Shown: one piece after another, positions 1,678 to 46,052 of the stretch
Layout of the letters: every line of letters starts with the position of its first letter
Numbering within the stretch: position 1 is the stretch's first letter
Translations under genes and position numbers: made by a program
Assembly: GCA_018267365.1 (NCBI GenBank)
Contig: JAFDYQ010000005.1
Span: forward strand, 124,001 to 188,000
Reading direction: 5' to 3'
Source: Bacteroidota bacterium
GTDB lineage: Bacteria > Bacteroidota > Bacteroidia > Chitinophagales > LD1
Length of the DNA: 64,000 bases
The notes under the pieces: generated by a model
Database searches by the model: none
Told to the model about the DNA's origin: nothing
Seen by the model: the letters and a program-made list of their open reading frames with translations, nothing else

Positions 1678-1762
1678 CAGCCCCAAACCCCCAAAGGGGC
1701 TTAACAGCCAGCTCCCGCTTTATTAAAGCCCCCTTTGGGGGTTTGGGGGCCGAAGGGGGCCG
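1678..1762. repeat. inverted pair of GC-rich palindromic repeats
   Basis: Two copies of the AAGCCCC..TTTGGGGG..TTTGGGG repeat face each other: a reverse copy at 1678-1703 and a forward copy at 1723-1762. They are about 20 bp apart in the divergent spacer between the M23 peptidase gene and the SprE-like gene. Together they could fold as one long hairpin. Further copies occur at about 20571, 20738, 21091 and 46022. Confidence 0.8.
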
Positions 1763-19117: not shown

Positions 19118-19576
19118 ATGCGCTTTTTAGGCGAAATAAACTGCAGTGTAGACGACAAAGGGCGTGTCAAGATGCCCGTGTCCTTCAGCAGGCAATTTCC
19201 CGAGGGTGACAAGGGGAGGTTTATGATCGCCAGAGACCTGGATGACTGTCTCGTGATCTACCCCCTCGAAACCTGGAAGGCGCAAGAGGAGAAACTGAGG
19301 CAGCTAAACCCATTCAACCCCACGCACCGCGCCTTCACCAATGCTATCACTGTAGGCCTCACTGAAGTGGAAATGGATAGTGCCGATCGTTTCCTGATCT
19401 CTAAGCAACTGATGAGATACATCGGCAGTGCGAAAGAAGTGGTCCTCAAGGGCCAGTTTGACCGCATACAGGTGTGGGAGGCTACCAAGTACGAGCAGTA
19501 CATAGCAGGCCATCTCTCCAATGTGCAGCAGCTCGCTGCCGAAGTATCACAGTATCTGGACGCGAAGACCAATTGA
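19118..19576 (+). CDS. mraZ: transcriptional regulator MraZ
   Basis: 152 aa, the usual length. MraZ has two SpoVT/AbrB-like swapped-hairpin domains and forms a ring that binds the repeats at its own promoter. Both signature motifs are visible: DDKGRVKMP near residue 13 and DSADRFLIS near residue 87. It is the first gene of the dcw cluster. Its TGA stop (19574-19576) is embedded in the left arm of an inverted repeat, so the final Asn codon and the stop come from repeat sequence. Confidence 0.96.
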   Translation: MRFLGEINCSVDDKGRVKMPVSFSRQFPEGDKGRFMIARDLDDCLVIYPLETWKAQEEKLRQLNPFNPTHRAFTNAITVGLTEVEMDSADRFLISKQLMRYIGSAKEVVLKGQFDRIQVWEATKYEQYIAGHLSNVQQLAAEVSQYLDAKTN

Positions 19577-19669
19577 TAATTAATAATTGATAATTGACAA
19601 CGGCGCGGAAGCGTTACGATCAATACAATCAAATCTTAATTGTCCATTGTCAATTATACATTATCAATT
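19571..19669. repeat. long imperfect inverted repeat between mraZ and rsmH
   Basis: The left arm 19571-19600 (AATTGATAATTAATAATTGA and following) and right arm 19640-19669 are reverse complements at 26 of 30 positions, with a 39-bp spacer. The arms are built from degenerate AATTGATAATTGACAA units. The left arm contains the mraZ stop, and the right arm ends 9 bp before the rsmH GTG. Transcribed, it could form a long hairpin in the polycistronic mRNA. Confidence 0.85.
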
Positions 19670-19677
19670 GAAAAATT

Positions 19678-20583
19678 GTGAGCTATCACATACCCGTTCT
19701 TTTACATGAGTGTATAGATGGCCTGGCCATACAGCCTGACGGCATATACATCGATGCGACCTTTGGCGGCGGCGGTCACTCGCGCGAGATCATGAAGCAT
19801 CTCGGTGCCGAGGGCAGGCTGATCGGATTTGACCAGGATGCGGATGCGGCGCGCAACGTGATAGATGATGAGCGCTTCACCCTGATCCGGGCCAATTTCC
19901 GCCACATGCGCCGCTTCCTCCGGCTGGAGGGTATCACGCGGGTAGATGGCATACTGGCCGATCTGGGTGTGAGTTCCTTTCAGTTTGATGAGGCATCGCG
20001 GGGATTCAGCTACCGCTTTGAGGGACCACTGGATATGCGCATGAGCCAGAGCGACAGCCTGACGGCGGCAGAGATACTGAATACGTACGACGCCGATAGC
20101 CTGCAGGAGATGTTTGGCGAATATGGCGAGGTGCGCAATGCACGCACCTTGGCGCAGGCCATCGTAGCGCACCGGGCGCAGAGCAGCTTCCGGACTACTG
20201 CCGATCTGCGCGCGATATGCGAACAGGAGGGCCGCGGCGAGATACACCGCTACATGGCGCAGGTGTACCAGGCGCTGCGGATGGAGGTGAATGACGAGCT
20301 GGGTGCGCTGAAAGATGTGCTGACAGAGAGCAAGGAACTACTGGACGAGGGGGGCAGGCTGGCAGTGATCACCTTCCACTCGCTGGAAGACAGACTGGTG
20401 AAGAACTATATGAAGCACGGGGCCTTTGATGACGAGCCGGTGAAGGACTTCTTCGGAAACTTCGAAAGACCCTGGAAGCTGATCACAAAGAAGCCAGTGG
20501 TAGCGAGTGAAGAAGAAGCAAAGAGAAATAGCAGGTCATTATCGGCCAAGCTAAGAGTAGCAGAGAGGTACAAGCCCCTCTAA
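19678..20583 (+). CDS. rsmH: 16S rRNA (cytosine1402-N4)-methyltransferase RsmH (MraW)
   Basis: 301 aa. It methylates C1402 of 16S rRNA using S-adenosylmethionine. The SAM-binding motif is ATFGGGGHSREI, followed by LIGFDQDADA, and the family phrase DGILADLGVSSFQFDEASRG is intact. The start is GTG at 19678 (VSYHIPVLLHE), matching the usual family N-terminus. The last codons and the TAA stop (RYKPL-stop) fall in a palindromic repeat copy beginning about 20571. Confidence 0.96.
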   Translation: MSYHIPVLLHECIDGLAIQPDGIYIDATFGGGGHSREIMKHLGAEGRLIGFDQDADAARNVIDDERFTLIRANFRHMRRFLRLEGITRVDGILADLGVSSFQFDEASRGFSYRFEGPLDMRMSQSDSLTAAEILNTYDADSLQEMFGEYGEVRNARTLAQAIVAHRAQSSFRTTADLRAICEQEGRGEIHRYMAQVYQALRMEVNDELGALKDVLTESKELLDEGGRLAVITFHSLEDRLVKNYMKHGAFDDEPVKDFFGNFERPWKLITKKPVVASEEEAKRNSRSLSAKLRVAERYKPL

Positions 20584-20655
20584 ATCTCCCCAAGGGGAGA
20601 CTTGAAAACAAAAGAAGAATGTCTCTTAAGCCCCCTTGGGGGATTGGGGGCTGAG
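20571..20655. repeat. composite GC-rich repeat spanning the rsmH stop codon
   Basis: The half AAGCCCCTCTAAATCTCCCC / AAGGGGAGACTTGAAAAC (20571-20609) is followed by the half TTAAGCCCCCTTGGGGGATT (20626-20655). The TAA in CTCTAAAT is the rsmH stop. It is the same composite family as 21091-21156. Confidence 0.85.
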
Positions 20656-20664
20656 AAATAAAAA

Positions 20665-21102
20665 ATGACAAAAGAAAAAGACATATCAAAAGAAGCACAC
20701 GACGAGGAGGTGCCATTTCCAGTCGACGAAGCCGCTGTTAAAGCCCCCTCTGGGGGTTTGGGGGCTAAATCGCCAAAAGGCTTCCGCCGCTTCCTCCAGG
20801 TGTTTGACATAGTAGGTGGTGACAATATGCGTGGCATCATGACCAGCCTGCCATTTGTGGGCTTTCTGGTCATACTGGGCTTCCTGCACATAGCCAATAA
20901 TAACCTGGCTGAGAACTATGCCCGCCGCATCTCCAGGACTGAAAAGGATGTGCGTGACCTGCGCTGGCACTACATGGAATCCTCTAACCGCCTGATGAAA
21001 AAGAGCCGGCTGAGCGAGGTCTCAAAACTGGTACAGGAGCAAGGACTAAAGGAACTAAGGCAACCACCATATATCATAGAAGAAAAGAAGAAGGCCCCCT
21101 AA
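20665..21102 (+). CDS. ftsL: FtsL-like bitopic cell division protein
   Basis: 145 aa located between rsmH and the division transpeptidase gene, the FtsL position. A cytoplasmic N-terminus of about 70 residues is followed by one transmembrane helix (about 72-93, SLPFVGFLVILGFLHIA) and a short periplasmic coiled coil (ISRTEKDVRDLRWHYMESSNRLMK). FtsL joins FtsB and FtsQ in the divisome. Residues 26-35 (KAPSGGLGAK) are encoded by a palindromic repeat copy, and the C-terminal KAP-stop is encoded by another. Identity rests on position and topology, since FtsL is poorly conserved. Confidence 0.82.
   Translation: MTKEKDISKEAHDEEVPFPVDEAAVKAPSGGLGAKSPKGFRRFLQVFDIVGGDNMRGIMTSLPFVGFLVILGFLHIANNNLAENYARRISRTEKDVRDLRWHYMESSNRLMKKSRLSEVSKLVQEQGLKELRQPPYIIEEKKKAP
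20738..20770. repeat. GC-rich palindromic repeat inside the ftsL coding region
   Basis: TTAAAGCCCCCTCTGGGGGT continuing to TTTGGGGGCTAAAT is a forward copy of the family seen at 1723 and 46022. It is in frame and read as KAPSGGLGAK in the cytoplasmic tail of FtsL. Confidence 0.88.
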
Positions 21103-21156
21103 ATCCCCAAAGGGGGACTTGAAAGCCTCCCCCTTTGGGGAGGTTTGGAGGGGCAG
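21091..21156. repeat. composite GC-rich repeat spanning the ftsL stop codon
   Basis: The half AAGGCCCCCTAAATCCCC / AAAGGGGGACTTGAAAGC is joined to the half CTCCCCCTTTGGGGAGG / TTTGGAGGGG. The TAA in CCCCTAAAT is the ftsL stop (21100-21102). The tail continues as GACAACTAAG..GACTACTAAAT, a micro-repeat-like run just before the ftsI ATG. Confidence 0.87.
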
Positions 21157-21181: not shown

Positions 21182-23272
21182 ATGGCGAGCAACAACATAA
21201 AAAGAGAGGTGATGATCAGGATCTACGTAGGGTTCCTGTTTATCGCGCTGCTCAGTGTGGGTATCCTCGCCAAGGTGGTACATACACAGCTCTATGAGGC
21301 ACATGAACTCATAGCGCAATCTGATAGTACGAGCATTTTCTCCAAGACCATCGTAGCCGAGCGCGGCAATATCTATTCTGCCGATGGTAAGCTGCTGGCT
21401 ACTTCCCTCCCACTGTTTGATGTGCATATAGACTTCAATGCAGATGGCCTGACGGATGATGTCTTCACCCCACGAAATGTAGATTCAGTGGCCATGCTGA
21501 TGTCTGCCAAATACCACGACAAGACTGCGGCAGACTACAGGGCTGAATTCTTTAAGCATCATAAGAAGGCGGATACTTACTTCCTGCTGAAGAGAGATAT
21601 CTCGCTGGCCGATCTCAATGAGATGAAGACCTGGCCATGGTTTCGCCTGAGCCGCAATAAATCCGGCCTCATAGTAGAGACCAAGGAAATGCGCGACCAT
21701 CCGTTCGGCGATATAGCGCTGCGCACACTGGGTATAGATGAAAATCATGACGGCACCTACTCCTCCGGCCTGGAGCTGAAGTATGACAAAGACCTGACCG
21801 GTGAGGCTGTCAAGAAACTCTACCGCAAGCTCTCTGCCGGGGTAGCCAAGCCGCTGGACACAAAAGAAGAATCTGCCAACTCCGGCAAGGACATCTATAC
21901 TACCTTGGACATCAATATACAGGATGTGGCCGAAGATGCCCTGCGCAAGGCACTGACCCGCCACGATGCGGAGCACGGCTGTGTGATACTGATGGAGGTC
22001 AAGACCGGCAAGATCCGTGCGATAGCCAATCTGGGCAAACGCGACTCTGCTGACTATCGTGAGCTGTATAACTATGCCGTGGGTGAGGCCACCGAGCCGG
22101 GCTCTGTGATGAAACTCGCCACCGTAGCCTCTCTCATGGAGGATAAGCTGGTAGACAAAAATACGCCGGTAGAGTGTGGCAACGGCGTACTCATGATCCG
22201 CGGCCTGACCATCAAGGATCATGAGGCACCGGAGTCACCGCAGCTCACCGTGCAGAGGGCAGTAGAAGTCTCGTCTAATGTGGCCATGGCCGAGCTGGCA
22301 AAGGACTACTACATCGCTAAGCCGTCGCAATTCTATGATCACCTGAAGACATTTGGCTTTACCCAGCCCGTGCAGATCGAAATAGGTGGTGCGGCCAGGC
22401 CAGTACTGGCAGATCCTAAGAAGTGGTCCGGTGTGTCAGCGCCTTTCATTGCGCATGGCTATGAACTACAGATCACACCACTGCACACGCTGCAGTTTTA
22501 TAATGCTATAGCAAACAATGGCGTGATGGTAAAGCCTACGCTGATCGAAAAGATACGAGAGTATAATCAGACGGTAGACTCACCGGGCACCGTCGTGCTA
22601 AATGACAAGCTACTCAGCCAGGGGACCGTAAAACAACTACAGGAAATACTCGACGGTGTGGTAGAAAACGGCACCGCCAAGAACCTGAAAACCACCTACC
22701 TCAAAATAGCCGGCAAAACAGGAACAGCGGTCATATCTAATCATGGTTATAAAGTAAACAAGAAGTACCAGGCATCATTTGTCGGCTACTTCCCGGCAGA
22801 TAAGCCTGAGTACTCGATGATCATCGTGGTCAACTCTCCCGGACAGGGCGGCTACTATGGCAATGTGGTGGCAGGTGAGGTTTTCCGCGAGGTAGCGGAC
22901 AAAGTCTACTCCCTCTCTCTGGAGATGCAGCCCGCGGTGAATAACCCTGCTGTCACAGAGAATGATATACCGGTGATAAAGAATGCTGCCCGCGAAGACA
23001 TCGCGCGGATCTATGCCATGTTTGGCGCGCAGGCACCGGCTGGTGGCGATGACTGGATGATGGTCGGTGATGATCATAGCTATGTAGCCAATGATATCAA
23101 AATAGATATGGTGCCTGATGTGAAAGGCATGGGGCTGAAAGATGCGCTCTACCTGCTGGAGTCACACGGGCTGAGGGTAGAGTTTAAAGGAAAAGGAAAT
23201 GTGATCGGGCAGTCTATAGACGCCGGCACCAAAATATCAAAGGGACAAACCATAACACTGCAACTGAGCTGA
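21182..23272 (+). CDS. ftsI: division-specific class B penicillin-binding protein with one PASTA domain (FtsI)
   Basis: 696 aa. A short cytoplasmic tail and one transmembrane anchor (about 10-32) precede the pedestal/dimerisation domain and the transpeptidase domain with all three catalytic motifs: SVMK (Ser308-Lys311), SSN (364-366) and KTGT (512-515). A single C-terminal PASTA unit (about 635-696, MVPDVKGMGLKDAL) ends the protein. It cross-links septal peptidoglycan in the periplasm with FtsW as partner. Its TGA overlaps the murE ATG by one base, indicating translational coupling. Confidence 0.95.
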   Translation: MASNNIKREVMIRIYVGFLFIALLSVGILAKVVHTQLYEAHELIAQSDSTSIFSKTIVAERGNIYSADGKLLATSLPLFDVHIDFNADGLTDDVFTPRNVDSVAMLMSAKYHDKTAADYRAEFFKHHKKADTYFLLKRDISLADLNEMKTWPWFRLSRNKSGLIVETKEMRDHPFGDIALRTLGIDENHDGTYSSGLELKYDKDLTGEAVKKLYRKLSAGVAKPLDTKEESANSGKDIYTTLDINIQDVAEDALRKALTRHDAEHGCVILMEVKTGKIRAIANLGKRDSADYRELYNYAVGEATEPGSVMKLATVASLMEDKLVDKNTPVECGNGVLMIRGLTIKDHEAPESPQLTVQRAVEVSSNVAMAELAKDYYIAKPSQFYDHLKTFGFTQPVQIEIGGAARPVLADPKKWSGVSAPFIAHGYELQITPLHTLQFYNAIANNGVMVKPTLIEKIREYNQTVDSPGTVVLNDKLLSQGTVKQLQEILDGVVENGTAKNLKTTYLKIAGKTGTAVISNHGYKVNKKYQASFVGYFPADKPEYSMIIVVNSPGQGGYYGNVVAGEVFREVADKVYSLSLEMQPAVNNPAVTENDIPVIKNAAREDIARIYAMFGAQAPAGGDDWMMVGDDHSYVANDIKIDMVPDVKGMGLKDALYLLESHGLRVEFKGKGNVIGQSIDAGTKISKGQTITLQLS

Positions 23273-46021: not shown

Positions 46022-46052
46022 CTAAAGCCCCCTTTGGGGGTTTGGGGGCCGC
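46022..46052. repeat. GC-rich palindromic repeat before the gamma-CA gene
   Basis: CTAAAGCCCCCTTTGGGGGT followed by TTGGGGGCCGC, nearly identical to 1723-1752 and 20738-20770. It sits 17 bp before the ATG at 46070. In-frame translation through it (KPPLGVWGP) would be an artefact of calling the start too far upstream. Confidence 0.85.

Follow-up and report, generated by a model that had tools for sequence, protein, structure and literature searches.

A dispersed REP/BIME-like repeat family lies beside gene ends with a preferred orientation and encodes the stop codons of rsmH and ftsL in a Bacteroidota bacterium

Why should three consecutive genes of a division and cell wall (dcw) cluster each end inside a repeat? 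The question is raised by mraZ, rsmH and ftsL in a 64,000-nucleotide stretch of a Bacteroidota genome (the window; C55:124001-188000 of host assembly G000, 76 contigs, 4.6 Mb), where a first-pass annotation had placed all three stop codons within repeats and where we found each of them at the claimed position. The GC-rich copies at rsmH and ftsL belong to a dispersed family like the repetitive extragenic palindromic (REP) sequences and bacterial interspersed mosaic elements (BIMEs), and stop adjacency across that family exceeds chance, with lone units at stops nearly always in the same orientation. Most copies near a stop come after a host stop that is still intact, so what dominates is proximity to gene 3′ ends, and cases in which the element itself supplies the stop are the minority.

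The repeat family has the unit consensus RCCCC(CT)TAAAT(CT)CCCCnnnGGGG(GA)ACTT and is dispersed, frequently in inverted pairs. REPs are imperfect palindromes of 20-40 nt that form hairpins, and the present units agree with this at 25-33 nt with a CCCC-loop-GGGG stem, as they do in having many interspersed copies (43 units, mostly intergenic, in the 2.42 Mb analysed out of 4.61 Mb of host genome) and in lying 3′ of genes, in tandem or convergent gaps. The copy number is below the hundreds typical of classical REP genomes; 82 exact cores were present in genome G021. Units alternate in orientation as in BIMEs, with plus-minus pairs in G000, G004 and G021. The GTAG/CGTC tetranucleotide at one end was absent, the flank composition showing a purine before CCCC only. 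A known RNA family was rejected: no Rfam match in the window exceeded the gathering score, the best match for a dcw element (whalefall-1) reached 20 bits against a cut-off of 37, and microRNA matches to G021 composites were below cut-off and reflect long hairpins. Literature text searches with ATTTAGGGG and CCCCTAAAT gave only unrelated papers among the matches listed, and the literature searched yielded no description of the GC-rich family, although one may exist elsewhere. The core CCCCTAAATCCCC..GGGGACTT was also seen in records labelled Thiotrichaceae, Acholeplasmataceae, Spirochaetae and Onion yellows phytoplasma (L251, L263, L265, L264, L280, L293).

Counting the stops of long open reading frames (ORFs) around each unit, with no gene caller involved, we found a stop within -12..+6 nt of the CCCCTAAAT end in 38 of 75 units and of the other end in 3 of 75 (host genome plus family loci, p=4e-11). 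The asymmetry was seen in the family loci (33/63 vs 3/63) and in the host genome (5/12 vs 0/12), and loci from named genomes, nearly all Bacteroidota and with Spirosoma and Pedobacter among the carriers, gave 24/154 at the CCCCTAAAT end and 0/154 at the other. When genes were called, 25 of 49 elements in tandem gaps lay at most 10 nt from the upstream stop, where uniform placement would give 7.6 (P<1e-5), and just 2 of the 49 lay that close to the next start. Convergent gaps, which make up 12% of host intergenic length, held 20 of the 83 placed elements; by length, this gap type was over-represented and the divergent type under-represented. Lone units at stops had the same orientation in 28 of 29 cases (28:1), and many stop-abutting elements had 100-500 nt free on the other side of the gap. 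Such polarity favours an insertion process, or a function, that is itself directional. A DNA target containing a stop codon is unlikely, because no conserved flank extends beyond the purine next to CCCC, and a stop-codon target motif was rejected, as copies away from stops show no TAA/TAG preference beside them.

Which stop is used depends on where the element lies. A stop-adjacent element usually has an intact host stop 0-8 nt ahead of it, and in the remaining copies the element's TAA serves as the stop. Of the 14 cases in which the element extends into the coding end, 11 have the TAA in frame (1/3 expected, p=0.0007, orthologous copies counted once; leaving out the one that comes from a named genome outside the family gives 10/13), and the other 3 are read through, adding some 10-15 residues. 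This distribution agrees with selection for short, harmless ends. The first-pass annotation had proposed that repeats are targeted to gene ends or, alternatively, that insertions bringing a stop are selected, and this choice is partly supported: adjacency to intact stops dominates, and stop-bearing insertions form a minority subset in which the TAA frame is over-represented, as selection would give.

At the locus itself, ORF calls and Pfam matches give the order mraZ, rsmH, ftsL, ftsI; FtsL_2 is the Bacteroidetes FtsL family, and its presence in the window goes with a Bacteroidota source. The ORF after ftsI looks like murE when read by eye. The features are as follows.

19118-19576, plus strand: mraZ, with TGA at 19574-19576 within the left arm of an AT-rich inverted repeat (Pfam MraZ, 4.7e-26)
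19570-19600, plus strand: left arm of the AT-rich inverted repeat, which fills the mraZ-rsmH spacer and is of a family different from the GC-rich REP-like one
19640-19670, minus strand: right arm of the same AT-rich repeat; its end is ~7 nt ahead of the rsmH start
19678-20583, plus strand: rsmH, with TAA at 20581-20583 and the final 2 codons (PL) repeat-encoded (Pfam Methyltransf_5, 7e-97)
20574-20606, plus strand: REP-like unit GCCCCTCTAAATCTCCCCAAGGGGAGACTTGAA at the rsmH stop (nhmmer)
20628-20652, minus strand: inverted partner REP-like unit in the rsmH-ftsL gap (joint hairpin -41.3 kcal/mol, z -4.8)
20665-21102, plus strand: ftsL, with TAA at 21100-21102 and the final 2 codons (AP) repeat-encoded (Pfam FtsL_2, 4.7e-23)
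20738-20765, minus strand: REP-like unit within the ftsL reading frame (KAPSGGLGAK, N-terminal region; profile search)
21094-21123, plus strand: REP-like unit GCCCCCTAAATCCCCAAAGGGGGACTTGAA at the ftsL stop (profile search)
21122-21153, minus strand: inverted partner REP-like unit before ftsI (joint hairpin -42.9 kcal/mol, z -4.0)
21182-23272, plus strand: downstream ftsI/PBP gene (ORF call, Pfam)

The rsmH TAA lies in GCCCCTCTAAATCTCCCC and the ftsL TAA in GCCCCCTAAATCCCC, at the identical place within two copies of one repeat, just as had been described, and at both gene ends the GC-rich element is a composite in which a plus unit is followed by its inverted minus partner. The last codons of RsmH (KPL) and FtsL (KAP) had been read as repeat-encoded, which is correct for PL and AP and not for the K codons, which are host or shared. 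Likewise, the three ends had been taken as cases of one thing; rsmH and ftsL are, and for mraZ this is not supported in the host genome, yet G004 and G002 carry the GC-rich element there. The unit inside ftsL (20738-20765) is translated in frame; it also occurs in G004, G006, G003 and G002, is eroded in G005 and G001, and has a similar stretch in G016.

The three gene ends were traced in loci brought to one orientation, from 6 species of the genus and 22 other genomes of the family or order. The usual RsmH ending where the element is missing is ..AKLRVAEKI or a close variant, and with the element it is ..PL-stop or ..TL-stop (G000, G004, G005, G003, G002, plus G016 of another genus), the rsmH-end element being present throughout the genus except G001, and also in G016. 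FtsL without the element ends in ..KKxKK or similar in the genus; the ftsL-end element is found in G000 (..KKKAP-stop) and G004 (..KKQAP-stop) only and is absent from G001, G006, G003 and G002, and G005 has a pair in opposite orientation directly after its ftsL TAG. At the mraZ end, the GC-rich element stands at the stop in G004 (KT, TAG) and G002 (KTTAP-stop), the AT-rich repeat in G000, G005 and G001, and neither in G003 and G006. Because relatives without the repeat end in other residues at about equal length, the terminal PL and AP are repeat-encoded, and because protein lengths are nearly constant, each insertion fell only a few codons from the former stop. Gain and loss have recurred at the same dcw gaps. 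The link between repeats and gene ends came through both checks proposed for it, as terminal residues differ in relatives without the repeat and copies are not placed randomly relative to stops. A further composite, between convergent genes at C33:68055-68131 (L005; G004 counterpart L347), has opposite orientation in G000 and G004, reflecting an inversion or two insertions at one site.

REP/BIME-like copies occupy the rsmH and ftsL ends, and we consider it probable that the bias arises mainly from selection acting on a polar insertion process. With a single orientation, the CCCCTAAAT terminus comes to rest 0-10 nt from the preceding gene's stop, in the usual case placing the element behind an intact stop. 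A landing in the last codons would displace the old stop, and the element's internal TAA would take over if the frame fits, changing the final one to three residues. Insertions at gene ends may be harmless, or useful as 3′-end RNA hairpins, and those bringing a stop in frame would be retained, on top of the polar insertion process. Several points weigh against this explanation. Selection for hairpins alone cannot explain the 28:1 polarity, because a symmetric RNA hairpin needs no strict polarity, and abutting a stop with 100-500 nt to spare goes beyond what tolerance by itself would give. With the rsmH element decayed in G006 and lost from G001, it cannot be strictly necessary, and the G016 copy may be inherited rather than independent, because the rsmH-end and ftsL N-terminal units are both present; some insertion events may be shared by descent. 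In addition, the family loci were selected by the exact core CCCCTAAATCCCC, and gene calls relied on a home-made program. The present data do not distinguish insertion bias from selection, and the dcw cluster of this genus, with filled and empty sites at three genes of an essential cluster, makes the two testable against each other.

A stronger role for insertion would be taken by machinery like HuH or REP-associated tyrosine transposases (RAYTs), or tied to transcription or replication, that sets the CCCCTAAAT end at or just after stops. We regard such directed insertion as possible and somewhat doubtful. The 28:1 polarity, the close spacing of 0-10 nt, kept even where gaps are long, and the opposite orientations at one site (ftsL in G000/G005, the C33 convergent pair in G000/G004) argue for it, but no TAA/TAG or other motif stands beside off-stop copies, and among the RAYT-like Y1 transposase genes examined (G000, G004, G016 and G021) none has the GC-rich family at its flanks; several have palindromes of other kinds. 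The host genome has nine such genes. No unit, and thus no REPtron arrangement, was found up to 1.5 kb on each side of the Y1_Tnp genes examined in these four genomes, and mobilisation by a resident RAYT was rejected for lack of flanking units among them. The palindromes flanking the host RAYT-like genes (L039, L041, L042, L043, L044) belong to other families, e.g. cttccggattTGCaatccggaag and ttcaagcgTCCTcgcttgaa. Polar insertion guided by gene 3′ ends themselves, sensed for instance via the termination of transcription or of translation, and bringing the CCCCTAAAT end against stops with no DNA motif, seems improbable to us.

It is only tentatively that the elements could be taken as portable 3′-end or terminator modules, kept for ending or protecting transcripts. 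Several G021 composites between convergent genes consist of a unit, a central T-tract hairpin and an inverted unit, like a two-way terminator, with folds of -70 and -74 kcal/mol (z -12 to -13); a central ACAGCCG..CGGCTGTTTGTATTT is common to several G021 elements, and the convergent-gap excess points the same way. However, the dcw elements sit between co-directional essential genes, no T-tract was seen in the dcw copies, and termination at these sites would have polar effects on ftsI and later genes. Coincidence in compact operons, where any insert in a 25-80 nt spacer is near a stop, is very improbable as the general cause: the dcw spacers are short and gap lengths alone predict stop proximity for the 7.6 of 49 given above, but the 25 observed at stops and the mere 2 near starts led us to reject it for the family as a whole, and it could still explain single cases.

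The GC-rich family resembles REP repeats already known from other bacteria. GTAG REPs described in 2013 have termini beside stops and often provide the TAG, some lying inside ORFs (PMC3733652). Like these GTAG/CGTC REPs, the present family lies beside stops or supplies them, but it lacks the tag, ends in RCCCCTAAAT, uses an internal TAA as the stop, has no cognate RAYT that we found, and differs in its strict polarity. In E. coli, according to work cited in PMC12306157, about half of REPs are near enough to a stop to stall ribosomes, and only REPs <16 nt from the stop lower translation. Stop proximity is what E. coli REP/BIME elements, as described there, share with the present family, whose sequence and phylum are unrelated. 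REPs linked to RAYTs in Bacteroidetes (TnpA-Y1 subclasses 2.4 and 2.6; PMC6006769) share the phylum and the dispersed palindromes, but the host RAYT-like genes are flanked by palindromes other than the GC-rich family. The known closeness of REPs to stops is thus extended to a repeat across Bacteroidota with fixed orientation and no resident RAYT partner found. For annotation, C-termini of PL or AP in these proteins should be read with caution, as they are encoded by the repeat.

The mraZ repeat was rejected as an instance of the same phenomenon. Its TGA does lie in the left arm of an inverted repeat, whose arms are 31 nt rather than the 30 first given (87% complementary; RNA fold -31.7 kcal/mol, z -5.6), but its kinship with the dispersed repeats did not hold, as it belongs to a low-copy AT-rich family whose other full copy is off stops. 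An nhmmer model of the arms found only the mraZ locus in the 2.42 Mb of host genome, and a pattern search of the whole genome gave one other full inverted repeat, at C74:135584-135666 (L387 about 1494-1580). This copy is not at a stop and ends about 7-8 nt upstream of a start codon, like the copy between mraZ and rsmH. Units of the GC-rich family's CCCCCAAACCCCC subtype, which is without the TAA, were also seen at window positions 1681-1750 and 46023-46049, off stops, between divergent genes and ~20 nt from a start.
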